The notes under the pieces were generated by a model that worked only from the letters and a program-made list of their open reading frames with translations, ran no database searches and was not told the DNA's origin. From an uncultured beta proteobacterium (GTDB lineage: Bacteria > Pseudomonadota > Gammaproteobacteria > Burkholderiales > Casimicrobiaceae), in contig CAIWHR010000472.1 in assembly GCA_903912485.1 (NCBI GenBank), forward strand, positions 1-54,941: a stretch of DNA of 54,941 bases. Direction: 5' to 3'. Position 1 is the stretch's first letter. Every line of letters begins with the position of its first letter. Below, piece after piece: positions 5,325-23,355 of the stretch. The position numbers and the translations under genes were made by a program.

Positions 5325-5464
5325 GGTTCTCCTCCCAAAGTACCTGGATCGATCGAATGGCCGGCGTGCGGGTCTTGGCAAGCTGCGACCGCGGCGTCCC
5401 CGAACGTCTGGGGTTCGTTCGACGCCCAGGCGCAAACGGCCCGCATCGCCGGATGCAGGGGATC

Positions 5465-5530
5465 AGGATAGGACGGTGCTTGCCCGTTGTCCATGCAATG
5501 AAAGCAATCGATCACATTGCAGAACGCAAT
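5465..5530 (-). promoter_or_regulatory. Putative promoter with GCAAT operator repeats upstream of the binding-protein operon
   Basis: On the minus strand TGGACA (5493-5488) and TATCCT (5470-5465) are separated by exactly 17 bp, resembling a sigma-70 promoter for the gene starting at 5324. Just upstream of the -35 box the pentamer GCAAT occurs at 5495-5499, 5504-5508 and 5526-5530 and inverted at 5516-5520, giving two overlapping inverted repeats (GCAAT-N7-ATTGC and ATTGC-N5-GCAAT). That position would suit an activator or repressor site. Prediction only. Confidence 0.4.
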
Positions 5531-5581
5531 GAAGGTCGCGGCGCGCTGACCCGGAGCCGGTGCTGTGCCAGAATTCGCCTC

Positions 5582-5728
5582 ATGAACTTCGACGACGCCC
5601 GCATCCGCTCGGTCGCGCAGATCCTGCGCGACGGCGGCCAGACCATCGTGCTGCCGCGCTTTCGCGATCTCGCCGCCGCCGTCGCGGGCGGCCACTGCGA
5701 CGTCGCGCTGTTCCGCAAGCTGGGCTAG
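5582..5728 (+). pseudogene. 48-codon fragment resembling the N-terminus of an inositol monophosphatase-family protein
   Basis: The predicted peptide contains ILRDGG and TIVLPRFRDLAA, which resemble the conserved opening of inositol monophosphatase-family proteins (a helix ending in I-x-P-R-F-R-x-L). The catalytic part of that family (the E-x-x and D-x-D-G-T regions) is absent, and the frame stops after 48 residues, directly before the ATG of the FAD-dependent oxidoreductase. This may be a truncated gene or, less likely, a short coupled leader for the next gene. No good ribosome binding site precedes it. The resemblance is from memory of the family and is modest in length. Confidence 0.4.
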
Positions 5729-7003
5729 ATGCGCATGGATCGGAAGACGCGGCAGCGCTACGACGTGGTCGTCGTCGGCGGCGGCGCGGCGGGGATCGCC
5801 GCCGCCGTCGGCGTGCGGGAGGCCGGTGCACGGGCGCTGCTCGTCGAGCGCTACGGCTTCCTGGGCGGCGCCGCCACCAATGCCGGCGTGCTGTCGTACT
5901 GCGGCTTCTTCATCCGCGGCGATGCGTGCCGGCAGATCGTCGGCGGCGTCGGCGGGCAGGTGCTCGCGACGCTGTCGGGTCTCGGCTTCGACGTCGCCCC
6001 GGTGCGCGCGCCCAGCGGCAACTGGATCGTCATGCTCGACCCGGAAGCGCTCAAGGTCGCGCTCGACCGCATCGTCGCCAGGCCGGGCATCGACTGCCGC
6101 CTGCATTGCACGCTGATCGGCGCGCATCGCGCCGGGCCGCGCCTCGACGCGATCACGCTGTACGACCACGCCGGAGCGTTCGACGTCGAGGCGGCGGCCT
6201 TCGTCGACGCCTCCGGCGACGCCGACCTCGGCGCCGCCGGAGGCGTTCCGGCATTCGCCGCGGGGTCCGCGCGGCAGCGCCAGCACGCGTCGATCACGGT
6301 GCGCATCGGCGGCGTGCCGGCGGACGCGGCCGTCGACCGCACGCTGCTGGCCGAACTCGTGCGGCAGACCGATGCCGGAGCGTCGAAGGCTCACCTGCGG
6401 CGCCACGGCGGCCACTTCATCCGGCTGCCGCGGTCGAACGACCTGTGGTGGATGGGTATCGACCTCGTCACCGACGGCCTCGATTCGGGCGATCTCGGTG
6501 CGGCCGAGCAGGACGGACGCGAGCTCGCGTGGCGCTTCGTCGAACTGCTGCGCGCCGCGATGCCGGGCTTCGACCGTGCGTTCATCGCCGCGACCGGCCC
6601 GCAGCTCGGCATCCGCGACAGCCGGCAGCTCGCGACCCGGTATTGCCTGACCGCGGATGACGTGCTGACCGGCCGCGCCCGCGACGACGCCATCGCCTGC
6701 GGCTGCTGGCCCGCGGAACTGCACGGCGGCGATGGTGGCCCCAGCTTCGAGCCGGTCGGCGGCGACGGGTTCTATCACGTCCCGCTGGCCGCGATTCACG
6801 CGTCCGGGCTCGACAACCTCTGGGTAGGCGGCAGGGCGATCGGCTGCGACGAGCGCGCGTACGGATCGCTGCGGGTGATGGGGACGGCGTTCGCCACGGG
6901 TCAGGCCGCCGGAATCGCGGCGGCGCAGTTTGCGCGCAACCCGACCGAAGTCGGCGCGAATGAGGTCCGGCAGGAGCTGCTGCGGCAGGGCGCGATCCTC
7001 TGA
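5729..7003 (+). CDS. FAD-dependent oxidoreductase
   Basis: The 424-residue protein starts with the ADP-binding motif VVVVGGGAAGIAAA (13-26) and an acidic E40 at the end of the second strand, typical of FAD binding. The sequence ERYGFLGGAATNAGV fits the FAD_oxidored type of flavoenzyme, and a second glycine-rich stretch near the C-terminus (GTAFATGQAAGIAAAQFA) closes the FAD site. Members oxidise diverse small molecules. The ATG directly follows the stop of the 48-codon fragment; a second ATG at 5735 is possible. It diverges from the binding-protein operon, suggesting a shared regulatory region and possibly the same pathway. Substrate unknown. Confidence 0.85.
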   Translation: MRMDRKTRQRYDVVVVGGGAAGIAAAVGVREAGARALLVERYGFLGGAATNAGVLSYCGFFIRGDACRQIVGGVGGQVLATLSGLGFDVAPVRAPSGNWIVMLDPEALKVALDRIVARPGIDCRLHCTLIGAHRAGPRLDAITLYDHAGAFDVEAAAFVDASGDADLGAAGGVPAFAAGSARQRQHASITVRIGGVPADAAVDRTLLAELVRQTDAGASKAHLRRHGGHFIRLPRSNDLWWMGIDLVTDGLDSGDLGAAEQDGRELAWRFVELLRAAMPGFDRAFIAATGPQLGIRDSRQLATRYCLTADDVLTGRARDDAIACGCWPAELHGGDGGPSFEPVGGDGFYHVPLAAIHASGLDNLWVGGRAIGCDERAYGSLRVMGTAFATGQAAGIAAAQFARNPTEVGANEVRQELLRQGAIL

Positions 7004-7078
7004 CCAGCGTTGCCGGGCGGGGTGAATCGACAGACCGCTCCGAGACACCCGAGACCGGCTGACACGCCGACGACGGCG

Positions 7079-7711
7079 CTAGAACATGGCTTTCACCCAA
7101 CCGGCCATCATGCCGATCAGGACCAAAGCCCGCAGCTTGAACAGTGCCACGGTGTCGCCGGGCTGCGGCTCGGGCCTGCCGCACCGTGGATCGGAGCGCT
7201 GCAGCGCGCCGGTCATGCTGTGGTCGATCGGAATGGCTTCGCAACCATGGCCGCTCTCGCAAATGAAGTCCCACGGTTGGCGTGCCGGCACGTGGCAGGC
7301 GAAGCAGTTCTTGCCGAAGCGATTGTTCACGTCGGCCAAGCCTCGCGTGCGGATCTTCGAGCCGCTCTCGCCGACCTCCAGCTCGAAGAACTCCCAGTCG
7401 CCGGTAGCCGGACTGAATCCCGGTTCGCGCTTGACCATGGCTTCGGTCGGCACCAGTTGAACGACCGATCCCGGGGGATACACGGCACCATTCGGCGCGT
7501 TGGCGGCTGCAAGCGTGCCGGGCGTGTTCCCCAGCAGATTGTCGATGTAGAAGTGCCGCACCGGAACCATTTCGCGGATGCAGCGGAAGCTGCCCTCATT
7601 CACCATGACCGCGTTGGGCTCCGGGACATCGATCGCCTGGCTGCCGGCGGCAATGCCCAGTCCCATCGTCAGCATCGCCGCTACCCGCCGAACGAGCCTT
7701 GCCGTATCCAT
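7079..7711 (-). CDS. Exported mono-haem c-type protein of unknown function
   Basis: The 210-residue product has a hydrophobic N-terminal signal segment ending near SQAIDVP and one haem c motif, CFACH (136-140). The centre (YPPGSVVQLVPTEAMVK, then WEFFELEVGESG) resembles the beta-rich fold of cytochrome P460-like proteins, but this is a weak likeness and the P460 cross-link cannot be judged. Four further cysteines (C44, C151, C157, C177) could form disulphides in the periplasm. The C-terminus is hydrophobic. The second ATG, at 7711, is preferred because GAGG lies six bases before it. It lies 87 bp after the SRPBCC-SDR gene and may be the last gene of the BLUF/folE run. Confidence 0.65.
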   Translation of the reverse strand: MDTARLVRRVAAMLTMGLGIAAGSQAIDVPEPNAVMVNEGSFRCIREMVPVRHFYIDNLLGNTPGTLAAANAPNGAVYPPGSVVQLVPTEAMVKREPGFSPATGDWEFFELEVGESGSKIRTRGLADVNNRFGKNCFACHVPARQPWDFICESGHGCEAIPIDHSMTGALQRSDPRCGRPEPQPGDTVALFKLRALVLIGMMAGWVKAMF

Positions 7712-7797
7712 CATCTGCCTCGCTGTGCAATTTCTGACGCGTCGAGTCGGACGCGGGCGATGGTGCGCAGGGCCGAAGCCACGAAGCCGGGGCCCGA

Positions 7798-9216
7798 CTA
7801 ACGTTTGCCCAACCCTGTCGCTTTCCGACCGGTCAGTCTCGCCAGCGCATCCCACAGTTGCTGCCGCCCCTGCGGCGAAGGATCGGTGCCGGGAAAGACA
7901 TGGGTTGTGTGCGGCTCGCGGTCGAGCCAGAAGACGCCGCTCGCTCTGGCCGCTTCCGGCGCCGCCGCAAGCCAGGTGACGGTGTCCGCACCCTCTTCCG
8001 CGGTGCGCAGGAGGCGCCGTGTGATGGTGTGGAATCCGGGGAGTGATCCCGCGACACCGGGCGTATCCGCCCATCCCGGGTGCATCGCGTGGACGACGAC
8101 ACCGCTGTCCTTCAGCTGTTCCGCCCAGATCTCGGTCAGGACGACCAGTGCGCGCTTGGTGCGGGCGTACGCCCGGCTGCCGTCGTAGGCGCCCTTTTCA
8201 TACTGGAGATCCTCCGGAGCGAGGCCCGTGGCATACATGCCGCCGGAGGAGACGTTGATGATCCTGGACGGCGCCGACTCGCGCAGGCGCGGCAGCAGCA
8301 TCTGGGTCAGCAGGTAGGGTGCGAGCAGGTTGGTCGCCAGCGTGGTCTCATTGCCCTCGGCGGTCGTCGTTCGTCGGTTGAGGAGAACGCCGGCATTGTT
8401 CACGAGGACATGGATGCAGGGTTCCTCGAGCAACCGCTTCGCGAGCTTCCTGACATCGGCCAGCAGGCTGAGATCGGCCAGCGCGACCGCGACCTCGTCG
8501 TTGCCGGTCGTGGCGACGATCTCCCGTCGGGTGGCCTCGGCCTTGTCAGGGTCGCGACCCACCAGAATCACGCGTGCGCCCAGGTCAGCCAGCTGCGAAG
8601 CGGCGGCTCGTCCGAGGCCCGACGTGGCGCCCGTGATCACCACCGTGCGCCCGCGGAGCGAAACGGCCAGCGGCTTCCATCTCCGCTGGTGCCAGCGGTA
8701 GCCCAGGTTGGTGAAGCCGACCAGTCCCGGCACGATCAGGCGGTCCTGAAGATCGGTCAGCCGGCTGCGTCCAGGCGGTGGCGGCACTTCGGTGAGCGCC
8801 GCCTGAAGCCCGCGCACGGCACTCTTGCCGACGCGGTCGAGCGCCCCCTTCAACCATCGCTCGGCGCAGCGCAACGCCCCCAGCATCGAGATCTCCGCCG
8901 TGTACGTAATGCGGGTGCCTCCCGGTGTTGACGCGAACGCGATGTCATCCAACGCGTGGATGGAATCGCCCTTCCCCTCCAGCACCACGCGCTGCGGCGG
9001 CGCGTACTCGCGGACGACGTACGTCATGGGAATCGAGCCTGGCCCGAACCTGACCCGCAGCGCGAACTCCGTGCCGACCCCGACCGGGCCCCGACCGGTC
9101 TTGCGGGAAGCGACGACGCCCGGGTCCCATTGCGCCGTATTGCCGAAGTTGCTGGCGTAGGCGAAGACTTCGTCGATCGGTCGCGGGACTTCGATGGTTT
9201 CCTGGAGGCGAATCAT
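7798..9216 (-). CDS. SRPBCC-SDR fusion protein (DHRS12-like)
   Basis: The 472-residue protein joins two domains. Residues 1-145 form a START/SRPBCC ligand-binding fold (ETIEVPRPIDEVFAYASN opening), and residues from about 185 form an SDR with TGATSGLG (195-202), NNAG (273-276), S323/S324, Y350 and K354 (YARTK). The SDR half resembles the dehydrogenase/reductase DHRS12 group. The SRPBCC part probably holds a hydrophobic substrate for the reductase. The frame extends upstream past 9216, but that part overlaps the BLUF gene and shows no domain, so the ATG at 9216 was chosen; it lies 17 bp from the BLUF stop. Genes of this type often sit in light-induced loci with folE and cyclopropane-fatty-acid synthase, as here. 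Confidence 0.85.
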   Translation of the reverse strand: MIRLQETIEVPRPIDEVFAYASNFGNTAQWDPGVVASRKTGRGPVGVGTEFALRVRFGPGSIPMTYVVREYAPPQRVVLEGKGDSIHALDDIAFASTPGGTRITYTAEISMLGALRCAERWLKGALDRVGKSAVRGLQAALTEVPPPPGRSRLTDLQDRLIVPGLVGFTNLGYRWHQRRWKPLAVSLRGRTVVITGATSGLGRAAASQLADLGARVILVGRDPDKAEATRREIVATTGNDEVAVALADLSLLADVRKLAKRLLEEPCIHVLVNNAGVLLNRRTTTAEGNETTLATNLLAPYLLTQMLLPRLRESAPSRIINVSSGGMYATGLAPEDLQYEKGAYDGSRAYARTKRALVVLTEIWAEQLKDSGVVVHAMHPGWADTPGVAGSLPGFHTITRRLLRTAEEGADTVTWLAAAPEAARASGVFWLDREPHTTHVFPGTDPSPQGRQQLWDALARLTGRKATGLGKR

Positions 9217-9233
9217 GGCCGGCGTGGGACGGG

Positions 9234-9683
9234 CTAACGTGCCACCGACGGCGAAAGGCTCGCCTGTCCCATGATCGACGCGCGTGCCATCAGTTCGTGG
9301 AGCAACGCCATCGAGGTCTTTCCCGAAAGGCCATAGGGATCGAGGGTGGCGGTCTCCGAATACCTGAGCAGCAGCGACGCGTTTACCTGTTCCAGGTTGA
9401 CCCGGCCCATCGACCAGCTCGCGAAATCCCTTTCGCTGATTTCCTCGTAGGAAAGAATGACGACGTCGCTGTGGCGGGGATCGGCGGCGATCCGGTTGTA
9501 CAGTGCATTGACCTGCATGCGCCCGCCCTCCAGGCATTGCAGAAAGATGGGGCCGCTCGAGCAGAGAACGCCGGTGATTCCGCTCTCGGGGTTGTTGGCC
9601 TTGGACTGCAACAGGATATTGCGCAACTGCTCCTGCGATGCATCGTCGACCGCCCGGCTTGCATACACTAAACGTACCAACAT
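9234..9683 (-). CDS. BLUF-domain blue-light photoreceptor (short type)
   Basis: This 149-residue protein is a BLUF (FAD-binding blue-light sensor) domain with a short C-terminal tail and no output domain. Residues of the photocycle are present: Y7 (RLVYASR), N31 before SGITGVL, Q49 (FLQCLEG), W90 and M92 (SWSMG). It should bind FAD and act through protein contacts, as short BLUF proteins such as PixD do. The start at 9683 is supported by GGAG six bases upstream; an ATG five codons earlier lacks such a site. It lies 26 bp downstream of folE and 17 bp upstream of the SRPBCC-SDR gene, so the three are probably one transcript. Identification is secure, target unknown. Confidence 0.95.
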   Translation of the reverse strand: MLVRLVYASRAVDDASQEQLRNILLQSKANNPESGITGVLCSSGPIFLQCLEGGRMQVNALYNRIAADPRHSDVVILSYEEISERDFASWSMGRVNLEQVNASLLLRYSETATLDPYGLSGKTSMALLHELMARASIMGQASLSPSVAR

Positions 9684-9709
9684 GCAGTTCTCCACCATTC
9701 AGATGAGTT

Positions 9710-10438
9710 TCAACCGTTCTTCTTGCTGAGCAGCGAGAGGAATTCTCGGCGCAGGTCGGGATCCTTGAGAAACGAGCCCCGCATCACGCTGTTGGTCATG
9801 CGGGAATCCGCATCTTTCACGCCGCGCCAGTGCATGCAGAAGTGGTCGGCCTCGATCACGATCGCCAGACCATCCGGCTTGACCTTGTCCTGCAGGATGT
9901 TGGCCAGTTGCATCACCGCCTCTTCCTGGATTTGCGGCCGGCTCATCACCCAGTCGCAGATGCGCGCGTACTTGGACAGGCCGATCAGATTCGAGTGCTC
10001 GTTGGGCATGATGCCGATCCAGACTTTGCCGAGAATCGGGCAGAGGTGATGGGAACAGGCGCTGCGCGCGGTGATCGGGCCGATGATCAGCAGCTCGTTG
10101 AGCTGTTCGACGTTCGGAAACTCGGTCACGGAGGGCATCGCGTGATAGCGGCCCTTGAACACCTCGGTCAGGAACATCTTGGCGACGCGTCGCGCGGTTC
10201 CCTGCGTGTTGTGATCGCTCTCGGTGTCGATGACCAGGCTCCTGAGCACCTCGGCCATCTTCGCTTCCACCTCGACCCGAAGCTCGTCCACTTCGCCGTC
10301 CATGACGTAGGCGGAAATGTTGTCGTTGGCGTAATGGCGCTGGTTGGCGCGTTTCAGCCGGGAGCGGATGCGCTCCGACACGGGCAGGTCGCGGTCTTCT
10401 TCGATTTTGCGCAACAAGGCGGTGGGATGGGTCGTCAT
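9710..10438 (-). CDS. folE: GTP cyclohydrolase I
   Basis: The 242-residue protein catalyses conversion of GTP to 7,8-dihydroneopterin triphosphate, the entry to folate and pterin synthesis. The zinc ligands C128 and H131 (ACSHHLCP) and C201 (HFCMHWRG) are intact, and the substrate-binding region (LIGLSKYARICDW) is typical of type IA enzymes. The start at 10438 has AAGGA five bases upstream; a longer frame to 10465 is possible. It is probably a second, conditionally expressed copy: its neighbours are a BLUF sensor and remains of a LitR-like regulator, and folE copies in such light-controlled loci may supply pterin for photolyase-type cofactors. No photolyase gene is present in the window. Confidence 0.93.
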   Translation of the reverse strand: MTTHPTALLRKIEEDRDLPVSERIRSRLKRANQRHYANDNISAYVMDGEVDELRVEVEAKMAEVLRSLVIDTESDHNTQGTARRVAKMFLTEVFKGRYHAMPSVTEFPNVEQLNELLIIGPITARSACSHHLCPILGKVWIGIMPNEHSNLIGLSKYARICDWVMSRPQIQEEAVMQLANILQDKVKPDGLAIVIEADHFCMHWRGVKDADSRMTNSVMRGSFLKDPDLRREFLSLLSKKNG

Positions 10439-10600
10439 GCGCTTCCTTGGTGGTGGTTCATGCACATTGGTGGGGTTGCGGACGCGGTCGCCGGGCCGTG
10501 CGTTGCCAAGCGCCGCCCGCAGCGCCCGGCGAGCACCGCTGCCGGCAGCGTCAACGCGGGGAGGCTGCCCGTCAGCGCGCGCGACGGACCGCGGCCGCGG

Positions 10601-10882
10601 TCAGCGCGCGACGAGCGTGTACTGCCCGACATCGGTGGACCCGGTCGCAAAGCCCGCGGCGCAGTACGCGAGGCAGAAGTGCCAGCAGCGCCGGAAGCGT
10701 TCGCCGAAGCCCTGCGCGCGGATCGTGTCCGCGTGCGCGTCGAACGCGGCGATCCAGCGTTGAAGCGTCTCGGCGCAGTCCCGGCCGAAGACGTGCACGC
10801 CGACGGCTCGAGGTCGGCCGCCCGCGCTGCGGCGGCAATGCGCGAGGGTGAGGCCATTCAGGTCTTGTATGGTTTTTGTCAT
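10601..10882 (-). pseudogene. C-terminal remnant of a cyclopropane-fatty-acyl-phospholipid synthase
   Basis: This reading frame of 93 codons ends in a segment (FGRDCAETLQRW, then RFRRCWHFCLAYCAAGFATG) that closely resembles the last 60 or so residues of SAM-dependent cyclopropane-fatty-acid synthases. The SAM-binding and catalytic part, some 300 residues, is missing. The first 15 or so codons (MTKTIQDLNGLTLAHCRR) do not match the family and may be the start of another deleted gene, so a large internal deletion could have joined a promoter-proximal start to a distal end. Its ATG sits 17 bp after a plausible transcription start, so it may still be translated as a leader to folE. Confidence 0.6.
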
Positions 10883-10952
10883 GGACAAAAATGAGCTTTG
10901 TTGCAACAATACGGTCAATATGATCTTCTGTCAATACGTTGTCCATGACAAA
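10873..10952. promoter_or_regulatory. Divergent promoter region with palindromes between cfa and litR remnants
   Basis: On the minus strand TTGACA (10934-10929) and TATTGT (10911-10906) are 17 bp apart, a good promoter for the cfa-remnant/folE run. On the plus strand TATGAT (10919-10924) with TTTGTT (10897-10902) 16 bp upstream could serve the litR remnant. A perfect 12-bp palindrome TTGTTGCAACAA (10898-10909) overlaps the minus -10 box. GTCAATA occurs twice in direct orientation (10914-10920, 10930-10936). Both start codons lie inside copies of the 14-mer TTGTCCATGACAAA in inverted orientation (10939-10952 plus, 10890-10877 minus). Confidence 0.55.
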
Positions 10953-11145
10953 CATTGAACCTGGATGCGGTTCCGGCATCGTCCTCGACATCGGCGGCGC
11001 GGAGCGCGAAACCGGGCGGTCCAAGGACGTCCTGCGGATGTGGGGGCGCCGTTACTGCTCCCCCAACCCGGCGCGCGACGAGAACGGCGAGCGACAAAAC
11101 GCGCTCGCCCGCGAGTTGATGCGGCAGGCGCATGGGATTCGATGA
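10945..11145 (+). pseudogene. Degraded fragment of a LitR/CarH-like MerR-family regulator
   Basis: The 66-residue product contains a MerR-type DNA-binding segment, LDIGGAERETGRSKDVLRMW, followed by GRRYCSPNPARDENGER, which matches the start of LitR/CarH proteins (consensus W-E-R-R-Y-G-F-P-x-P-x-R-D-x-x-G-E-R). The conserved E and G of W-E-R-R-Y-G are changed to G and C, several residues after GER appear deleted, and the frame stops before the rest of the DNA-binding domain and the whole cobalamin-binding domain. The protein cannot be a functional B12 photoreceptor. Divergent placement from a cfa stub, folE and BLUF matches known LitR-type loci, which supports the identification. Confidence 0.55.
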
Positions 11146-14419: not shown

Positions 14420-14647
14420 ATGGCGACAGAGGAACTCGTGCGCATAATGAACCGGTTCGGGGACGTGGATGTCAAGGAAAGGGATGTGCTGACACTGGAC
14501 TTCGTCGACGGTGTCACCAGGGTCAAGCTTAACGGGCAGGCCGGAGGCGTCATTCCGGGAGAGGCGTTCAACCGCGCGCTCACCCGGATCTGGCTGGGCG
14601 ACAAGCCGGCCCACCGCTCCCTCAAGAAGGCGATGCTGGGCGGATGA
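14420..14647 (+). pseudogene. C-terminal fragment of a chalcone-isomerase-like protein
   Basis: The 75-residue frame ends in VIPGEAFNRALTRIWLGDKP and a SLKKAMLGG tail, the characteristic end of bacterial chalcone-isomerase-like proteins (I-W-L-G-x-x-P). Such proteins are about 190 residues with an export signal; here the first two thirds are gone, with an in-frame stop at about 14369. The frame ends in an ATGA overlap with the next gene, so it could still be translated and couple to it. In other genomes, as I recall, such genes occur in the same loci as litR and cyclopropane-fatty-acid synthase, which links this stub to the remnants at 10601-11145. Confidence 0.5.
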
Positions 14648-15672
14648 CCCCGATGGCGTTCATGGCCAACCAATCGGTGCTTGTCACCGGTGGCAGCGGT
14701 TTCATAGGCAGCCACCTCGTTCGCCGACTGACCGAGCACGGCTGCCAGGTCTCATGTCTGGTGCGCGCGAAATCGCGCGTCGACGAATTGCGGGCGACAG
14801 GCGCCAGGCTCGTCGTCTGCGACATTGCCGATCGCGCACGGATTGCCATCGCCCTCGCGGCGGCGAATGCTCGCGTCGTGTTCCACGTCGCCGGCCTGGT
14901 CCGGGCGCTGGACGCGGAAGACTTCATGCGGGTGAACGCCGGCGGCGTCGAGGCGGTCGCGCAGGCGTGCGCCGACCAGCACGACCGTCCGGTCCTCGTA
15001 CTGGTCTCGTCGCTTGCAGCCGCAGGTCGCAGCGGCGACGGGCCGGTCGCCGAGAGCGCCTCTGCGGCGCCCGTCTCGGATTACGGTCGCAGCAAGCTGG
15101 CCGGAGAACGGGTGGCCATCAGGTATGCGGACACCCTGCGCATCACCGTGGTGCGGCCGTGCATCGTGTTCGGCGCCGGGGACCGCGGGATGTACGAGGT
15201 TTTCAAGCCGATCGCCCGGTCGGGCCTGCATGTCGTCGTCGGCTCCGGCGACAGCCGCTTTTCGCTGATCGCCGTTGCGGACCTCGTGGAGTGCCTCTTG
15301 CTCGCGGCAGAGCAGGGCGAGCGGCTCGTTCCCGGCATCGCCGGAAAGGGCCTCTACCACGCCGCCGCGGAAGATGCTTCCTGCGTCGAGATCGGCCTGG
15401 CGGTCGCACGTGCGCTCGGCAAGCCGCCGCCCCGCATTCTCCGCGTCCCCGAGTGGTCGATGCGGACCATCGGCCGGTTTGGCGACGCCGTGTCGCGAAT
15501 CCGCGGTCGCCCCGGTTGGGTCGGCAGCGACAGGATACGCGAGGTTCTCGCCGGATCGTGGACGTGTTCGTCCGGAAAGGCACGGCAGCAATTCGGCTGG
15601 TCGCCGGCAGCCTCTCTTGCCGACCGGTTGCATGAAACCGCGCAATGGTACCGGGATGCGCGCTGGCTTTGA
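14644..15672 (+). CDS. NAD-dependent epimerase/dehydratase-type reductase, candidate ceramide reductase (CerR-like)
   Basis: The 342-residue extended SDR has the cofactor motif TGGSGFIG (15-22), S122/S123, and the catalytic Y147 and K151 (YGRSK). Such proteins include sugar-nucleotide epimerases, 3-beta-hydroxysteroid dehydrogenases and the bacterial CerR, which reduces the 3-keto group in sphingolipid synthesis. Absence of sugar-nucleotide genes and proximity to a serine-palmitoyltransferase-like fusion and a bCerS-like GNAT favour the last. It is on the plus strand, convergent with the rest of the candidate cluster, with a 27-bp gap to the GNAT gene. The first ATG gives an ATGA overlap with the upstream stub; ATGs at 14653 and 14662 are alternatives. 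Confidence 0.75.
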   Translation: MTPMAFMANQSVLVTGGSGFIGSHLVRRLTEHGCQVSCLVRAKSRVDELRATGARLVVCDIADRARIAIALAAANARVVFHVAGLVRALDAEDFMRVNAGGVEAVAQACADQHDRPVLVLVSSLAAAGRSGDGPVAESASAAPVSDYGRSKLAGERVAIRYADTLRITVVRPCIVFGAGDRGMYEVFKPIARSGLHVVVGSGDSRFSLIAVADLVECLLLAAEQGERLVPGIAGKGLYHAAAEDASCVEIGLAVARALGKPPPRILRVPEWSMRTIGRFGDAVSRIRGRPGWVGSDRIREVLAGSWTCSSGKARQQFGWSPAASLADRLHETAQWYRDARWL

Positions 15673-15699: not shown

Positions 15700-16827
15700 T
15701 CACAGCATGCGGTCGTAGATTCGATAGGTCTTGGTCAGCCTGGTTCCGGCCCGCCTGAGCGAACCGCGCGAGGCCTCATTGCTCTCGAGCACCCATGAAA
15801 ACTCCCAGCCGCTGAGACCCCAAGGCTTGGCGGATTCGACGAGGCGGTCCAGCAGCACGACGCCCAGGCCCGATTGCTGGTGCTCCGGCAGCATCGTCAC
15901 GGCCATCGCCCGCGCGACGTTGATCCGCTTGCGTCCCCAGAGAAGCCTGAAGACGCCGAAGGGCAACAGCCGGCCATTCAGTTTGCGGATGATCTGGTTG
16001 TAGTCGAGAAGTGCCAGCACGGCGCCGACGGCCACACCGTCGACCATGGCGAAGGCCGCGAATTCAGGCGCGATGATCTGCCCCAACTCCGCCGCGATGT
16101 GCGCCACCTCGCCCTGCTGCAGCGGAGTGAAGCCCCAGGTACCGTCGAGCGCGCGGTTGTAGATCTCGAGGAACGTCCGGATCTCCGATGCAAGATGTTT
16201 CCGGTCGAACCGGCGCACGACGAAGTCATCGCCTTCCAGCGATGCCATGACCGCAGGCCTGTAACGGTCGACCAGCTTCGCCAGCAGCGCGACATCCATC
16301 TCGTAGGCGTACATGTCCTGGGTCTTGACGAATCCGCACGCCTCGATCAGCGCGGCGTAGTACGGGGGGTTGTAGGTCATCAGGAACACCGGCGGACTCC
16401 CGAATCCGTCGATCAGCAGGCCGCAGGTGTAATTGAGGGAAGGATTGACCGGCCCTCGCCACGCGGTCATGCCGCGTTGCAGGAGCCAGGCACGGCCTGT
16501 CGCGAAGAGTTCGCGCGCGACCGCGGGGTCGTCGACGCACTCGAAGAAGCCGAAGAACCCGCGCTTCTCGTCGTACTTGGCGTTGTGGGTGTCGTTGACG
16601 AACACCGCGAGGCGCCCGGCGACCTTGCCATTGCGTTCGGCGAGCAGCGTCACCATTTCCGCGTGGTCGAAGAAAGGGTGCCGGCCCCAGCCCAGCAGCA
16701 GGCGCTCCTGCGAGAGGATGGGCGGGACCCAGTTGGGGTCGTTCGCGTAGATCGCCCACGGCAGCCGCTGAAAACGGCGCCGATCGCGCCACGACGTCGC
16801 TGCTCTGACGGAGATCGTATCGCTCAA
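15700..16827 (-). CDS. GNAT-like protein, candidate bacterial ceramide synthase (bCerS-like)
   Basis: The 375-residue protein is larger than usual GNAT enzymes and belongs to the group with an RRFQRLPWAIYANDPNWVPP opening, a GFFGFFECVDD segment and a late acyl-CoA-binding stretch (LPEHQQSGLGVVLLDRLVE). The ceramide synthase described in Caulobacter (CCNA_01212) is a GNAT-superfamily acyltransferase encoded near spt; this protein has similar size and context, so N-acylation of a sphingoid base is proposed. No ATG fits: the best start is TTG at 16827, giving a TTGA overlap with the stop of the upstream gene, like the ATGA overlaps elsewhere in this operon. Specific function is inference. Confidence 0.65.
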   Translation of the reverse strand: MSDTISVRAATSWRDRRRFQRLPWAIYANDPNWVPPILSQERLLLGWGRHPFFDHAEMVTLLAERNGKVAGRLAVFVNDTHNAKYDEKRGFFGFFECVDDPAVARELFATGRAWLLQRGMTAWRGPVNPSLNYTCGLLIDGFGSPPVFLMTYNPPYYAALIEACGFVKTQDMYAYEMDVALLAKLVDRYRPAVMASLEGDDFVVRRFDRKHLASEIRTFLEIYNRALDGTWGFTPLQQGEVAHIAAELGQIIAPEFAAFAMVDGVAVGAVLALLDYNQIIRKLNGRLLPFGVFRLLWGRKRINVARAMAVTMLPEHQQSGLGVVLLDRLVESAKPWGLSGWEFSWVLESNEASRGSLRRAGTRLTKTYRIYDRML

Positions 16828-17798
16828 TGGATCCGCCGATCGGCGATGACCTGCCGGCACACGTCCGCGATATTCTCCGCGGCGGAATCGTTCTGCACCG
16901 GCATCAGGCGACGCAGGTCGTCCACCGGAAAATCCGAATGGATCTCCTTGCCCAGTGCCAGGCCGACGAAGGCCGTGGACGAGTACCGGGTGATCAGCAC
17001 GTCGCAATTGGCGATCATCTCCTCCGCGCTGCCCTCGGTGAACGTCAGGGCGCCCGGTGCGTATTGCCGTACTTCGCCGACGGCGCGCACCATGTCCTCG
17101 TTGGGGTGGAACTTGAAGATCATCGGGCGGCCGTCGGCGATTGCCACGGCACTGCGAATGAAGTCCACCCGATCCTCGCCGCGGAAGACCTCGCGCAGCG
17201 GCGACGTGCAGACGAGAACGAAATTCCGGTGCGGAAACGCATTGTCGCGATAGCGTTCGCAATGGTCGAAGTTGGGGATGCCGGTGACGACGATCTTCTC
17301 CGCATTCGCCCCCTTGCCGACGAACAAGTGCCGGTAGCCTTCGCTGGCGACGCAGAACGCCCTGTAGGCGTCGCTCAAGCCCGTCGCGGCGGTCCCCGCC
17401 AGCCACAGCGGCAGCGAGCGGTGCCGCTGCACGAGGCGGAAGGTCCTGTCCTCCGGGTCGGTGATGCCTTCCTGGACGAGGACGACGCGGCTGGCGCGGA
17501 TGTTCCTCTGGACGAAAACATCGGAGCAGGTGACCACGAGGTCGTACGGGCCGCGCCGTCCCTGGTAGTCGATAGCCAGACCCGCGGCACTCAGGTATTG
17601 CCGGCAGCGTTCCGCAAGCTTGGCGCCGATGATCGTGAATTCCAGCAGTTTCAGCCGACGCATTGCTTCCTGCAAGCCGTCGCAATAGAAGGGCGTGAAC
17701 GCCTGCCCGTAATCTGCCAGCTGCCGCGAGATCTGGTGCATCTGCGTCGTCTGGTTCATCGAGCCGCAGATGAACAGGATTCGCTTCCCGCCGTTCAT
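16824..17798 (-). CDS. GT-B-fold-like transferase of unknown substrate (glycosyl- or glycerophosphotransferase-like)
   Basis: The 324-residue protein has two Rossmann-like halves. The first begins RILFICGSMNQTTQMHQI and contains a strand-loop VLVQEGITDPED; the second has VTGIPNFDHC, FKFHPNED and DVLITRYSSTAFVGLALGKE, reminiscent of the nucleotide-binding end of CDP-glycerol glycerophosphotransferases and UDP-GlcNAc 2-epimerase-type GT-B proteins. No export signal is visible. It is tightly coupled both ways (ATGA overlap with the permease, TTGA overlap with the GNAT gene). In the proposed sphingolipid locus it could add a polar head group, but this rests on position alone. Confidence 0.55.
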   Translation of the reverse strand: MNGGKRILFICGSMNQTTQMHQISRQLADYGQAFTPFYCDGLQEAMRRLKLLEFTIIGAKLAERCRQYLSAAGLAIDYQGRRGPYDLVVTCSDVFVQRNIRASRVVLVQEGITDPEDRTFRLVQRHRSLPLWLAGTAATGLSDAYRAFCVASEGYRHLFVGKGANAEKIVVTGIPNFDHCERYRDNAFPHRNFVLVCTSPLREVFRGEDRVDFIRSAVAIADGRPMIFKFHPNEDMVRAVGEVRQYAPGALTFTEGSAEEMIANCDVLITRYSSTAFVGLALGKEIHSDFPVDDLRRLMPVQNDSAAENIADVCRQVIADRRIH

Positions 17799-18910
17799 GT
17801 GCTCTCGTCCCATCGCGTCTTGAACGTGCCGGCGACGAATACGACCGCGGCGAAAGCGGCAATCACGGCGACGGCCCGCAGCGTAGCCGCGTCGTCGACG
17901 AAGATCATCGCCGAGCGCAGCGCCTCGTTCACGTAGTAGAGCGGCAGCAGCTTGGCGAATGCCTGCAGGAAGGCCGGCATCATTTCCACCGGAAAGAACG
18001 TGCCGGAGAGGAACATCATCGGGAACAGGAACGCGTTGGCAACCGCGGAGGCGCTTTCGGCCTCCTTGGCGAAGGGCGTGAGCAGCATGCCGATGCCAAC
18101 GAACGCGATGACCTCGACGACGATGATCAGCGGCAGCCAAAAGCCGATGTGCAGCCGGACGTCGAACACGAAGTAGCTGACGAGCAGGATGGCGACGGTC
18201 GAGATGACGGAAAGGATGAGCTGGTAGACGATGCTCGACGCGAGCCAGTCTGCACGCGTGATCGGCGTGGTGGCGAGCTTGCGCAGGATGCCTTTCTGAC
18301 GCAGTTCGGCGTTCATGTTGAGCGCATTCGACAGGCAGGAGGTCATGATCGCCATCGCGATGATGCCGGGAACGAAGAAGTCGATGAAGCGGTAGCGCTT
18401 CGACAGGATCGATGCCGCGACGAGCGTGAGCGCCGGGGGAGTGCCGGCCGCCGTCTGGTTGGCGGCGGCGACGACCCCATCGAGGAGCTGGATCTTGGTC
18501 TCCACCGCTGTCGAGCTTGGGTCGTACACGTACCGGATGGGCACCGGAACGCCCGCCTGGGCGCCAGCGACGCGCTGCTTCTGCAGAGCCTCGAAGTCCT
18601 TCGGAATCACGAGCAGCAGGTTGAGCTTGTGGTCCTTTGCATACTGCGTTGCATCGACGGCGACCGGCACCACGACGACTCTGAACGCGGCGCCGGCGGC
18701 GAGCGCTTCGAGCAGCCTTGCCGACGCTGCGCTGCCGCTGTTGTCCTGCACCGGCAGGTCGAAGTTGAGATGCTCGGGCTTGGTGAATATCGTGCCGAAC
18801 ACGAGCACGAGGATCACGGGGAAGGCAAACGTGAAGAACATCGCCGACCGCTCGCGATAGAAGCTCCTCAGTCGCACGCCCAGGTTGGCGTGGATGATCC
18901 GTGGTGTCAT
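17795..18910 (-). CDS. ABC-2 type transporter permease
   Basis: The 371-residue membrane protein has one N-terminal transmembrane segment (MFFTFAFPVILVLVFGTIF), a large extracytoplasmic domain of roughly 150 residues, and five or so C-terminal segments, the layout of ABC-2 exporters such as DrrB/YhhJ. The FFVPGIIAMAIMTSCLSNALN and PMMFLSGTFFPVEMMP segments are typical. It overlaps the ATPase gene by ATGA and the transferase gene by ATGA, so all are co-expressed. As an exporter beside lipid genes it could move the finished lipid or a precursor out of the cytoplasmic leaflet. Confidence 0.88.
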   Translation of the reverse strand: MTPRIIHANLGVRLRSFYRERSAMFFTFAFPVILVLVFGTIFTKPEHLNFDLPVQDNSGSAASARLLEALAAGAAFRVVVVPVAVDATQYAKDHKLNLLLVIPKDFEALQKQRVAGAQAGVPVPIRYVYDPSSTAVETKIQLLDGVVAAANQTAAGTPPALTLVAASILSKRYRFIDFFVPGIIAMAIMTSCLSNALNMNAELRQKGILRKLATTPITRADWLASSIVYQLILSVISTVAILLVSYFVFDVRLHIGFWLPLIIVVEVIAFVGIGMLLTPFAKEAESASAVANAFLFPMMFLSGTFFPVEMMPAFLQAFAKLLPLYYVNEALRSAMIFVDDAATLRAVAVIAAFAAVVFVAGTFKTRWDEST

Positions 18911-19854
18911 CGTGCGTGGTCGCCGACGTCCGTGGCAGGCTTTGCGGCAGTCAGCTTCAGGAACACCTCCTCGAGATTGGGCTTGCGCACGTCGACGCCG
19001 CCCAGCGCGAGCCCGGATGCCGCGATCTCGTCGAGGATGCGGCGGACGTCGTCGGGTGTCTCGACCGGAACGCACAGGCCGCCTTCGCCAACGGGGACCG
19101 GGGCAAAGCCAAGGTTGCGGAGCAGATCCGCGGCTGCGGCGTCGATCGACTTCAGCGTCAGCCGCATCTGGTCGGCGTGCGCCTCGGTCAATCTGACCGG
19201 CGAGTCGATGGCGACGATCCGCCCCCGGGAGATGATCGCGACGGTGTCGGCCAGCAGTTCGGCCTCTTCCATGTAGTGAGTCGTGAGAAACACGGTCTTT
19301 CCGCGATCCTTCAGGCCCTTGAGCACGTCCCAGACCTGGCGCCGGGCCTGCGGATCTAGCCCGGTCGTGGGCTCGTCGAGGAAGAGGATCTCCGGGTCGT
19401 TGACCAGCGCGACGGCGATGCCGAGGCGCTGCTTGAGGCCGCCCGAAAGCGTGTTGAACCGCGCCGCGGACCTGTCGCGCAGGTTGGTGAGATCCATGAG
19501 GGCGTCGATGTCGGCATCGCATCCGAACACGCGGGCGTAGTACTGCAGGCTCTCGCGCACGGTGATGCGATCGAACGAGCTGAAGTTCTGCGGCAGGACG
19601 CCGATCCGGCGTACCACCTGTGCCTTGCGCTTCCCGACGTCCATGCCGAGCACCGTGACGGTTCCCGACGTAGGCGCGCGGATGGTCTCGATCACCTCGG
19701 CGGTCGTGCTCTTTCCGGCGCCGTTGGGGCCGAGGAAGGCGAACACTTCGCCCTGCTCGACGGTGAACGAGATGTCGTCGACGGCCGTGAACGCGCCGTA
19801 GCGCTTGCGGAGCCTGTCCACCACGATGGCCGGCCCGGTGCTCGTCATGATCAT
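18907..19854 (-). CDS. ABC-2 type exporter ATP-binding protein (DrrA/CcmA type)
   Basis: The 315-residue protein has Walker A GPNGAGKST, Q-loop LPQNFS, signature LSGGLKQR, Walker B ILFLDEPTTGLDP and the switch histidine in LTTHYMEEAE. The C-terminal extension of about 90 residues is common in ATPases of drug or lipid exporters. It pairs with the permease encoded by the next gene through an ATGA overlap. The gene begins 36 bp after the large fusion gene's stop, so it probably belongs to the same transcript. A second ATG two codons in is an alternative start. Confidence 0.92.
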   Translation of the reverse strand: MIMTSTGPAIVVDRLRKRYGAFTAVDDISFTVEQGEVFAFLGPNGAGKSTTAEVIETIRAPTSGTVTVLGMDVGKRKAQVVRRIGVLPQNFSSFDRITVRESLQYYARVFGCDADIDALMDLTNLRDRSAARFNTLSGGLKQRLGIAVALVNDPEILFLDEPTTGLDPQARRQVWDVLKGLKDRGKTVFLTTHYMEEAELLADTVAIISRGRIVAIDSPVRLTEAHADQMRLTLKSIDAAAADLLRNLGFAPVPVGEGGLCVPVETPDDVRRILDEIAASGLALGGVDVRKPNLEEVFLKLTAAKPATDVGDHAR

Positions 19855-19890
19855 GTATATCGCTGGTGCGGGATGGTCGCGACGGCCGTG

Positions 19891-22800
19891 CTAGAGCTGC
19901 GCGAGTTCCTCTGCGATCGCGTCGACCGCGCCGCGGATGAGCGACTCGGTGTGATTGACCGTGATGAATACCCGCAGGCGCGTGGCCCGCTCGGGCACTG
20001 CCGGATGGATGATCGGCTGGACGTTGATGCCGCGCCGGAACAGGGCGCGGGAGAGCAGGATGCAGCGAACCGAGTTGCCGACGATGATAGGGATCACCGG
20101 CGTTCCCCCGGCGCTGCCCGTATCGAGCCCGCGTTCGCGCGCGAGTCGGAGGAAGAGGCTCGACAACTCGCGGAGCCGCGCGACCCGCTCGGGCTCGCGG
20201 TCGAGAACGGTCAGCGCGGCCAGCGCGGCGGCCGCGTTGGGCGGAGAGAGCCCGACGCTGTAGACGAACCCGGGTGCCGTGTACTTGAGGTACTCGACGA
20301 GCTCGATGGAGCCGGCGATGTAGCCGCCGCAGCTGGCGAACGACTTGGACAGCGTGCCCATCCATACGTCGACGCCGGAGGGTGCGATCGCCGCGTGTTC
20401 GCTCAAGCCGCGCCCGGTCCGGCCCATCGTTCCGAGCGAATGGGCCTCGTCGACGTAGAGCATCGCCCGATGTTTCTCCTTGATCGCGACGAAACGCGCC
20501 AGGTCCGGAAAGTCGCCATCCATGCTGTAGACGCCTTCGATCGCGATCATTACGCGGCGATGGCTGTGGCGGATGCCCGAGAGGAGCACGTCGAGTGCGC
20601 GCCAGTCGTTGTGGGCGAATCCGCGGCAGGTGGCCCCGGACAGTCGTGCGCCCTGCAGGATCGAGTTGTGTGCCAGGACGTCGTGCACGATGAGATCGCC
20701 CGGCCCCAACAGGTGCCCGATGGTCGTGACGTTGGTCGCGTGCCCGGAGACGAAGACGATCGCCGCAGGCGTGCCGAGAAACGTCGCGAGCGCGTTCTCG
20801 AGGTCGCGGTGGACCTGCTTTTCGCCGGAAACGAGGCGGCTGGCCCCCGCGCTTGTTCCGTAGCGATCGACGGCCGCCTTGGCTGCCGCCGTGACCGCCG
20901 GATCGCGGGCCATGCCGATGTAGTCGTAGGCGCAGAAGTTGGTGAGCGCCTGGCCGTCGATGTGGGTGCAGCCGGCCGTGGCCTGCGCCAGGGGTTCGTC
21001 GCCCTGGTCCACGCGGAAGTAAGGATTGGTTTCGTGGATGGCCAGCAGCATGCGCTTGTGGCGCTTGAATTCCAGGTATTCGGGGAACATCGCCACTTCG
21101 TAGTGTGCCACCGGGACCGTGCGCACGGCGACGTCGGAATGCGGGTGGTCGACAAGGTGCTTCTGTACGGCAGCGGCGAGGTCGCCGAGGGTTATCGACG
21201 GGCTGTAAACCGTGTCCGGCAGGTGGCGCCCGAAACTCTTGTCGAGCGCCGCAATCAATTCGACGAACTGCAGCGAATCGAGGCCCAGCGCCTCGATCGG
21301 CGTCCCGGGCGTCACGTCGGCGAGCGCGGTGCCCGACATCGCGAGCGCGTGCCGGCACACGGTGGCGAATGCGGCGCAGGGCGCGGGAAGCTCGGCCGGC
21401 GGGGCAGGCAGCGAAGCCGCGGGCGCGCATTGCGCGGGCTGGCGTGCGAGGGGTTTCAGTTCGTCGGCACGGAATGCCGCGCAGACCGCGTGGCGCCTGA
21501 CTTTTCCGCTGGACGTCTTGGCGATGCTGCCGCAGCGGATCAGGACGACGACATCGAGGGCAAGGCCATGCGTCGCCAGCACCGCGGCGCGAACCGCGCC
21601 GATGACCGGGGCCAGGTCGCCGCTCGCTTCACGGATGACTTCGTGCACGAGGACCAGGCGCTGCTCACCGTGTTCACTGAACGCGAACGCTGCACCGAGG
21701 CCGGAGACGAGCAACGGGTGGCTCTGGCGGGCGGTGGCTTCGATGTCCTGCGGATGATGATTGAGGCCGCGCACGATGATGAGGTCATCGATCCTGCCGG
21801 TGATGTACAACTGCCGGTCGTGCATGAAGCCCAGGTCCCCGGTCCGCAGAAAGGGTTCGGCGCCGGCGTCGTCCAGTCGCCTGCGAAACGTCGCTGCCGA
21901 CTTTCCGGGACTGCGCCAGTAGCCGCTGCCCACGGAGTCGCCGGCAATCCAGATCTCGCCAATGCGGTCGGGAGCCGCCCGCTCGCCGGTCTCGGGCTCG
22001 ACGACGGCCACGCGCAGCGATCCGACGGGCCCGCCACAGCCGACGAGCCGGCGGGCGCCGGGCGCGGCGTCGGGGAGCGGCACGACCCGGTTCTGCGCCA
22101 GGGCGCTGTCGGCGAACGCGCGTACCGTGGCGCCGCTTCCTGCCTTCGGTCCGGTGACCATCAACGTCGCCTCCGCCAGGCCATAGCAGGGATAGAAGGA
22201 GGTGGGCCTGAATCCGCACGGAGCGAATGCCTCGGCGAAGCGGGCCAGCGTGGCAGGCTCGACGTTCTCGGCGCCGATGAACGCGACGGACCAGCTGGAG
22301 AGATCGAGGACCGCGCGCTGTTCCGCGGTGATCTTGCGCACGCACAGGTCATAGGCGAAGTTCGGTCCGCCGGAAACGCTGGCGCGAAACCGGCTGATCG
22401 TATCGAGCCAGAGGAAGGGATTCTGGACGAACATCGCCGGCGCGATGACGACGTTGGGAATGCCGCAGTAGATCGGCGCGAGGATGCCGCCGATCAGCCC
22501 CATGTCGTGACAGGTTGGCAGCCAGAACACAGCCTTCGTGCCGCGACCGACGGCGAAGGCCTCGCTTATGGCCCGCGTATTGGCGAGGATATTGGCGTGG
22601 CTCAGCATCACGCCCTTGGGACGGCTGGTGGAGCCCGACGTGTACTGGATCATCGCCAGCGACGCGGGGTCCGGATGACGTTCGGTCCACCCTTCCCCTT
22701 CGCTGTCGCCGATCGTTTCGGTCGCTATCCAGCGCACCGATGTGCTGCCCGCATCGATCGTTCGCATGGAGGCGGCGATGGCGGCGGTGCTGAGGACCAC

Positions 22801-23355
22801 CGGGGCACCGGCATCGTCGGCAAGCGCGTGAAAGCGGTCGAGGGTTCGCGCCCGGGGCGGGTACGCGGGAACGGCGATGCAGCCGGCGTAGAGCGCGCCG
22901 AAGAAGCCGGCGATGAATTCCAGACCGGGCGGGTAGGCTAGCACCACGTTGCTGCCCGCAAGCCGCATGTCCTGGAGGTGCGCGGCGATCGCCCGTGCGC
23001 GGCGATCCAATTGCGCGTAGGTCAGCGACGCCCGGAGCGTTTCGCCGTCAATTCCTTGCGCGAACGCGACATCGGAGGGGCGTCCCGCAGCGAGGTCCCG
23101 CAGGCATTGGACCAGGCTCGTGCGGCTGTCCCGCGCGTCGCTGCGAGGGCTAAGCGAAGCCCGGATCGCAGCCTGCGCCGCAAGCCCACGCGGCCGGACG
23201 TCGGCCGTGCCCGGCCGTCGGGAAGCCGGGACGTCATTCGCTGGCGAGGGGATGCCGGCGCCACGGACGGAACGGAGGCCGCGCTTCCTTGCGGTGTTGA
23301 CCGGGAGCGGCTCCGTCTCGTGCGCGGCGGACCCCGGGCGCATTTCAAGTGTCAT
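19891..23355 (-). CDS. Tri-domain fusion: fatty-acyl-AMP ligase, acyl carrier, serine-palmitoyltransferase-like PLP enzyme
   Basis: With a start at 23355 the protein has 1154 residues. Residues about 80-630 are an acyl-AMP ligase (YTSGSTSRPKGVMLSH at 239-254; YITGRIDDLIIVRGLNHHP near 517-535; final K of SSGK at 618). Residues 660-735 are an acyl carrier domain with the phosphopantetheine serine S694 (GLDSLQ). Residues about 755-1154 are an alpha-oxoamine synthase (D969 in YVDEAHS, PLP lysine K1004 in GTLSKSF). The expected chemistry is activation of a fatty acid, transfer to the carrier arm, and decarboxylating condensation with an amino acid, probably serine, to a 3-keto sphingoid base. The start is uncertain: ATGs at 23409 and 23343 are alternatives and none has a clear ribosome site. 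Confidence 0.85.
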   Translation of the reverse strand: MTLEMRPGSAAHETEPLPVNTARKRGLRSVRGAGIPSPANDVPASRRPGTADVRPRGLAAQAAIRASLSPRSDARDSRTSLVQCLRDLAAGRPSDVAFAQGIDGETLRASLTYAQLDRRARAIAAHLQDMRLAGSNVVLAYPPGLEFIAGFFGALYAGCIAVPAYPPRARTLDRFHALADDAGAPVVLSTAAIAASMRTIDAGSTSVRWIATETIGDSEGEGWTERHPDPASLAMIQYTSGSTSRPKGVMLSHANILANTRAISEAFAVGRGTKAVFWLPTCHDMGLIGGILAPIYCGIPNVVIAPAMFVQNPFLWLDTISRFRASVSGGPNFAYDLCVRKITAEQRAVLDLSSWSVAFIGAENVEPATLARFAEAFAPCGFRPTSFYPCYGLAEATLMVTGPKAGSGATVRAFADSALAQNRVVPLPDAAPGARRLVGCGGPVGSLRVAVVEPETGERAAPDRIGEIWIAGDSVGSGYWRSPGKSAATFRRRLDDAGAEPFLRTGDLGFMHDRQLYITGRIDDLIIVRGLNHHPQDIEATARQSHPLLVSGLGAAFAFSEHGEQRLVLVHEVIREASGDLAPVIGAVRAAVLATHGLALDVVVLIRCGSIAKTSSGKVRRHAVCAAFRADELKPLARQPAQCAPAASLPAPPAELPAPCAAFATVCRHALAMSGTALADVTPGTPIEALGLDSLQFVELIAALDKSFGRHLPDTVYSPSITLGDLAAAVQKHLVDHPHSDVAVRTVPVAHYEVAMFPEYLEFKRHKRMLLAIHETNPYFRVDQGDEPLAQATAGCTHIDGQALTNFCAYDYIGMARDPAVTAAAKAAVDRYGTSAGASRLVSGEKQVHRDLENALATFLGTPAAIVFVSGHATNVTTIGHLLGPGDLIVHDVLAHNSILQGARLSGATCRGFAHNDWRALDVLLSGIRHSHRRVMIAIEGVYSMDGDFPDLARFVAIKEKHRAMLYVDEAHSLGTMGRTGRGLSEHAAIAPSGVDVWMGTLSKSFASCGGYIAGSIELVEYLKYTAPGFVYSVGLSPPNAAAALAALTVLDREPERVARLRELSSLFLRLARERGLDTGSAGGTPVIPIIVGNSVRCILLSRALFRRGINVQPIIHPAVPERATRLRVFITVNHTESLIRGAVDAIAEELAQL

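Follow-up and report, generated by a model that had tools for sequence, protein, structure and literature searches.

Can a single bacterial polypeptide activate a fatty acid, load it onto a carrier of its own and condense it with an amino acid to give a sphingoid base? In Caulobacter, serine palmitoyltransferase (Spt) prefers its acyl chain bound to a carrier, and a dedicated acyl carrier is preferred in Rhodobacteria (PMC9386255). The question is raised by a fused gene in a stretch of 54,941 nucleotides from an uncultured beta proteobacterium of the Casimicrobiaceae, referred to here as the window. The original prediction read this gene as a self-loading sphingoid-base synthase joining an acyl-AMP ligase (FAAL), a carrier and an Spt-like PLP domain.

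The fused gene lies on the minus strand, which the original prediction left unstated. It starts with an ATG at position 23355 and stops at 19891, and it comprises the following features.

19891-23355, minus strand: fused FAAL-ACP-alpha-oxoamine synthase (AOS), 1154 aa (P0001), defined by the ORF, Pfam, NCBIfam and solved relatives.
21454-23091, minus strand: FAAL domain (AMP-binding plus DIP2-like C-terminal subdomain), residues 89-634, from Pfam.
21166-21333, minus strand: carrier (PP-binding) domain, residues 675-730, with phosphopantetheine serine S694, from Pfam; GLDSL is invariant in the aligned fusions.
19894-21090, minus strand: AOS region used in the trees, residues 756-1154, from Pfam, the residue alignment and its own clade in the trees.

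Pfam found the predicted adenylation, carrier and PLP domains, with all four matches above cut-off: AMP-binding (residues 89-480, 3e-63), the DIP2-like AMP C-terminal domain (524-634, 4e-13), PP-binding (675-730, 1e-7) and Aminotran_1_2 (PF00155, 804-1147, 7e-42). S694, within GLDSLQ, and K1004, within GTLSKSF, lie in this one intact frame exactly where they had been predicted, and the catalytic residues are invariant in an alignment of four fusion sequences. The opposite strand is also open, with a mechanical ORF of 1022 aa (19873-22941) overlapping the fusion gene. The domain matches and the conservation in other assemblies argue that the minus-strand frame is real and not due to chance. AlphaFold2 confidence from four-row alignments was low, with a pLDDT of 38.5 for the whole fusion and 42 for the 324-aa protein encoded nearby.

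The source genome is an assembly of 644 contigs with an estimated contamination of 4.9%, which might favour an artefactual joining of separate genes. Such an artefact has next to no probability and is refuted by the recurrence of the fusion in independent assemblies. A scan of genome contigs found it at full length in two Burkholderiales assemblies, at 75% (L010) and 77% (L011) identity and with the same gene order, and residues 139-1154 were found in a third assembly (L009, 72%). A more diverged fusion is present in another genome of the class, G578, described below. Furthermore, the C-terminal part of the fusion occurs in a Phycisphaeraceae bin (L013, best segment 64%), more diverged three-domain proteins occur in two Pirellulaceae bins (L012 and L056), and the FAAL-ACP-AOS architecture was seen in L010, L011, L012 and L255.

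Downstream of the fusion, the window carries the following genes.

18907-19854, minus strand: ABC transporter ATPase (DrrA/NodI-like; PF00005, TIGR01188 below cut-off), conserved in L010, L011 and L013.
17795-18910, minus strand: ABC-2 type permease (PF01061/PF12698), 64-88% identical in L010, L011 and L013.
16824-17798, minus strand: 324-aa protein (TIGR04396, 27 bits against a cut-off of 125), 72-86% identical in L010, L011 and L013.
15700-16827, minus strand: predicted GNAT-like N-acyltransferase, bacterial ceramide synthase homolog (CerS/bCerS; YghO, CC_1154 family, by homology to YghO), start TTG.
14644-15672, plus strand, convergent with the operon: NAD-dependent epimerase/dehydratase, candidate ceramide reductase (CerR-like; 29% to BL21 ECD_02852).

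By the ORF coordinates, 36 bp separate the fusion from the ATPase gene and the next three junctions are 4-bp overlaps, a spacing that suggests a single transcript from the fusion through the GNAT gene. The same downstream order of ATPase, permease, 324-aa protein, GNAT-like protein and convergent epimerase was found in L010 and L011, the L009 contig ends inside the ATPase gene, and in L013 the ATPase, permease and 324-aa genes are present before the contig ends. The ABC and 324-aa genes of this Phycisphaeraceae bin are 64-72% identical to the Burkholderiales copies, a closeness that makes transfer or misbinning possible. No Pfam match was obtained for the 324-aa protein, and its weak resemblance is to surface carbohydrate biosynthesis proteins; it is possibly a head-group glycosyl- or glycerophosphotransferase. 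Searches of PDB sequences with the GNAT and 324-aa proteins returned nothing usable.

The GNAT gene suggests a link between this operon and sphingolipids. Its product aligns end to end with E. coli BL21 YghO, the only named member of the family that was compared directly (31% identity, 201 bits), and is 28-37% identical to proteins encoded near canonical Spt genes. Both yghO and CC_1154 are listed as the acyl-CoA N-acyltransferase (aca) gene needed for dihydroceramide synthesis (PMC9386255). Homology over the full length to the YghO/CC_1154 family, together with the link with Spt, places the gene at 15700-16827 as a predicted ceramide synthase homolog. The epimerase matches BL21 ECD_02852 at 29% and 101 bits; in the tree it lies apart from HpnA (99* branch), nearest to two epimerases adjoining Spt-like genes of sub-cut-off score (93, unstarred). 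With 29% identity in a large family, this gene is a candidate and no closer than CerR-like. CerS and CerR are reportedly defined by Stankeviciute in 2022 and Olea-Ozuna in 2021.

To analyze the association of this ceramide synthase homolog with Spt, 229 genomes from the class were searched both with the NF047599 model of Spt (E <= 1e-120) and with the window GNAT protein (E <= 1e-10); the window's own genome was left out, so that 228 remained. GNAT matches were present in all 13 genomes with a strong Spt match, 11 of which exceeded the curated cut-off, as against 2 of the 215 others (Fisher p 2e-19, a value that ignores the shared ancestry of the genomes). One of these two, G512, has only a weak GNAT match (E 2e-12), and no AOS was found in the 15 kb read. 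The other, G578 (GNAT match at E 1e-74), belongs to a family different from that of the window's genome. This strongest exception to the rule, opened afterwards as a test, carries a fusion in place of Spt: on one strand and closely spaced lie a CerR-like gene (5428-6420), a FAAL-ACP-AOS fusion of 1114 aa (6476-9820) and a CerS homolog (9862-10995). The sphingolipid setting that had been predicted is thus well supported by the CerS homolog in the operon, the CerR-like neighbour, the co-occurrence and the same trio in G578.

The ancestry of the PLP domain tells a different story from the one predicted. It is a fold-type I PLP domain of the AOS superfamily, with K1004 (Schiff base), H896 (PLP-stacking), D969 and H972 (DEAH) and R1128 (carboxylate-binding) aligned with all references, and the solved relatives of the C-terminal part of the fusion are Spt, KBL, ALAS and BioF enzymes. 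It scores below the curated cut-offs of three NCBIfam Spt models (NF047599, 255.6/500 bits; NF047600, 292.1/640; NF047603, 196.2/670) and of the BioF (344.6/426.45), KBL (219.7/493), ALAS (246.1/338.55) and CqsA (141.1/428) models, and its BioF score exceeds each of its Spt scores. In the trees, canonical Spt, that of E. coli BL21 among them, group in a 100/100 clade that excludes the window AOS, which also lies outside the BioF, KBL, ALAS and CqsA clades. The clustering with BioF, KBL or CqsA that was named as refuting the original prediction was thus not seen, but neither was placement within Spt, so that on this point the prediction is neither refuted nor cleanly upheld. The window AOS belongs instead to a 100/100 clade made of the fusions, Planctomycetota AOS and AOS that adjoin large polyketide synthases in genomes from the window's order. 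The way this clade joins Spt, KBL and BioF is less firm (support 88/85), and grouping it with Spt was not rejected by the AU test (p-AU 0.19). BioF (contig C417, 470.7 bits) and KBL (contig C256) are both present elsewhere in the window's own genome, and on that ground a simple reading of the fusion as either enzyme is rejected; no Spt above cut-off was found there.

The AOS of the polyketide clusters, 48-61% identical to that of the window, are judged by their gene setting probably of the RkpG/WcbT type. Of 17 such loci read, 16 have in common a long conserved ORF (2212-2762 aa), and the one of these that was scanned encodes a highly reducing polyketide synthase. The conserved neighbours scanned include Capsule_synth, polysaccharide export or ABC-2 genes, and plasmid records show the same PKS-AOS pairing in Sinorhizobium and Pseudomonas. 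The rkpGHIJ genes were reportedly described by Kiss in 1997. An AOS beside PKS and capsule genes is what the rkp and wcb clusters also show (PMC3908369). Common to these systems and the window fusion is a chain taken from a carrier domain; they differ from the window in that the chain is made by the highly reducing PKS, the AOS is usually a separate gene, capsule genes are present and a CerS homolog is missing, the GNAT query giving no match at E 0.001 in loci L132-L148.

A similar result was obtained for the FAAL domain. Its best matches are models and structures of FAALs and not of CoA ligases; the best solved relatives are 7r7g (488 bits) and 3kxw (418 bits), with FadD32 among the others, and in the tree it falls outside the AasR clade (100*), among other FAALs. 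In the Rhodobacterial system, AasR, AcpR and Spt (Caulobacter CC_1165/1163/1162; BL21 ECD_02851/02853/02854) perform the same order of chemistry as three separate proteins, in a pathway that also includes CerS (YghO/CC_1154) and CerR homologs, whereas the window has one chain of different ancestry. FAAL and AOS are 34% and 33% identical to their BL21 counterparts, both in other clades, and the BL21 carrier gave no BLAST match to the fusion. The FAAL and AOS trees rule out a direct fusion of a Caulobacter-type aasR-acpR-spt set. The predicted parallel with Caulobacter consequently holds for function and fails for ancestry: on its sequence, the fusion would follow the same dedicated-carrier logic as Rhodobacteria, in one chain assembled from other parts. 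The Pirellulaceae proteins have the same three-domain order (AOS 53-55% and FAAL 44-47% identical to the window fusion), but, unlike at the window operon, neither a CerS nor a CerR homolog was found in the stretches searched at their loci (19 kb in L056, 7.7 kb in L012). Natural-product systems include carrier-fused AOS and FAAL fused to its own carrier, as in the ACP-AOS and FAAL-ACP didomains of PigH and TamA; we know of none, judging by their descriptions, that joins all three domains in one chain in a ceramide setting.

Several residues bear on the amino acid used. Common to the window AOS and Spt, and absent from BioF, KBL, ALAS and CqsA in the aligned set, are the motif EG-x-YSM and the Ser that precedes the PLP lysine. 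The PLP-lysine motif reads GTLSKS in the window AOS and GTFSKS in Spt, where it has been termed SPT-characteristic (PMC10196870). The Asn52 of S. multivorum Spt, which contacts the serine hydroxyl through water (PMC10196870), is replaced by Tyr in the window AOS and in most of its clade; each of the five NF047603 (alphaproteobacterial) Spt has Tyr there as well, so that it is no argument against serine. The equivalents of Ser81, His138, Thr241 and Ser243 are retained, and the loop following K1004 is HPAVP where Spt has PPATP. We infer that serine is probably the amino acid substrate. A tentative alternative, to which we give a minor share, is that the same chemistry uses alanine, glycine or another amino acid and yields a 1-deoxy-type or novel N-acyl aminoketone lipid, still processed by the CerS and reductase homologs. 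AOS family members use differing amino acids, alanine and glycine are poor substrates of Spt itself (PMC10196870), and both the Tyr and the C-terminal loop could be read in this way. However, the Tyr shared with alphaproteobacterial Spt and the four retained residues argue for serine, and the partner genes are those of serine-based ceramide synthesis.

Two further readings give the fusion another role. It could make an aminolipid that serves a surface polysaccharide as anchor or precursor, the role proposed for RkpA-RkpG and WcbR-WcbT, with the FAAL replacing the PKS as acyl source. This we regard as improbable. The nearest AOS relatives adjoin highly reducing PKS and capsule export genes, the 324-aa neighbour has a weak match to a model for surface carbohydrate proteins and an ABC-2 exporter is present, but no Capsule_synth gene and no highly reducing PKS was found among the flanking genes scanned, and the CerS homolog absent from the capsule-type loci read is present in G578 and in the window operon with its two full copies. 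Less probable still is a natural-product synthase making a secondary-metabolite aminoketone unrelated to membrane lipids. The grouping of the FAAL with other FAALs and not with AasR, and the DrrAB-like exporter, would fit such an enzyme; against it stand the CerS and CerR-like homologs, conserved together, and the flanking genes scanned, which include no assembly-line gene.

The reading we prefer, with a probability of about 0.7, is that the fusion acts as a self-contained sphingoid-base synthase at the head of a ceramide-type lipid operon, its activity and use of serine being deduced from sequence and gene context. As the original prediction had it, all the parts for acyl activation, loading of its own carrier and hand-over to the AOS are present in a single polypeptide. 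The FAAL domain would adenylate a free long-chain fatty acid with ATP, and the acyl group would move to the carrier of the same chain, onto the phosphopantetheine arm attached at S694. This arm would offer the resulting thioester to the PLP domain, in which PLP bound to K1004 would form an aldimine with the amino acid, most likely L-serine. Decarboxylative condensation would then free a long-chain 3-oxo base. In the presumed order of later steps, the GNAT product would N-acylate the base and the epimerase-like protein would reduce its 3-oxo group, giving a (dihydro)ceramide-type lipid, to which the 324-aa protein might add a head group before export, perhaps by the ABC transporter. Several observations weigh against this synthase: a PLP domain outside the canonical Spt clade and scoring higher on BioF, nearest AOS relatives outside the fusions in polyketide and capsule clusters devoid of CerS homologs, and the HPAVP loop. 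There is, furthermore, the precedent of a Nostoc AOS that has conserved Spt residues and yet formed no 3-oxo-sphinganine and had no Spt activity in E. coli (PMC8895605).

On balance we lean towards a model in which two AOS lineages serve the committed step of ceramide synthesis. One would be canonical Spt, working with AasR and AcpR as separate proteins; the other would be an AOS of the polyketide/capsule type, joined in one chain to a FAAL and a carrier. Both would feed the same CerS family, and surveys based on the Spt clade would miss the second. If so, Spt-based surveys may underestimate the sphingolipid capacity of bacteria, and the first step of the pathway would have been rebuilt from other parts while the downstream ceramide synthase was kept. 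With the conversion of fatty acid, ATP and amino acid to a sphingoid base in one protein, it would also be easier to study the acyl hand-off from carrier to AOS and to make long-chain bases. A limited literature search found no description of a FAAL-ACP-AOS fusion, and an earlier mention is possible. In a Black Sea survey, AOS homologs outside its Spt-like clade were treated as not involved in sphingolipids, and some of its Spt hits were parts of longer proteins (PMC11334938).

The fusion of fatty acyl-AMP ligase, carrier and alpha-oxoamine synthase (FAAL-ACP-AOS) is also found in a family other than that of the window, where locus L255 (contig C207 of G578, 5428-10995) carries a CerR-like epimerase gene, the fusion and a CerS homolog as neighbours on a single strand. 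In the tree, the AOS of this fusion falls in the polyketide-linked AOS branch (95/93), apart from the window's AOS. The fusion may therefore have originated, or been kept, on more than one occasion. In the stretch available around the Pirellulaceae fusions (L012 and L056), no CerS or CerR homologs were found.

From 17 genomes, out of 300 in the order, AOS genes were read (L132-L148) that share 48-61% identity with the AOS domain of the window. All but one of these 17 loci share an ORF of 2.2-2.8 kaa, a polyketide synthase where scanned, and several carry capsule genes; no account of their lipid product was found in the literature searched. A Streptomyces anthocyanicus plasmid (L216, 4299-9119) encodes a 1607-aa KS-AT-ACP-AOS protein, whose AOS part is 52% identical to the window's.

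An epimerase gene immediately adjoins the AOS gene at L231 and L232 (G708 and G595); these AOS proteins score 423 bits, below the serine palmitoyltransferase cut-off of 500, and weak CerS homologs in both genomes lie on other contigs.

Elsewhere in the window, a 579-aa frame (7798-9537) joins a polyketide-cyclase-like domain to a short-chain dehydrogenase. The 324-aa protein at 16824-17798 has no Pfam match and a weak surface-carbohydrate likeness; its relatives (53-55%), in G656 and G516, are encoded away from any AOS gene.
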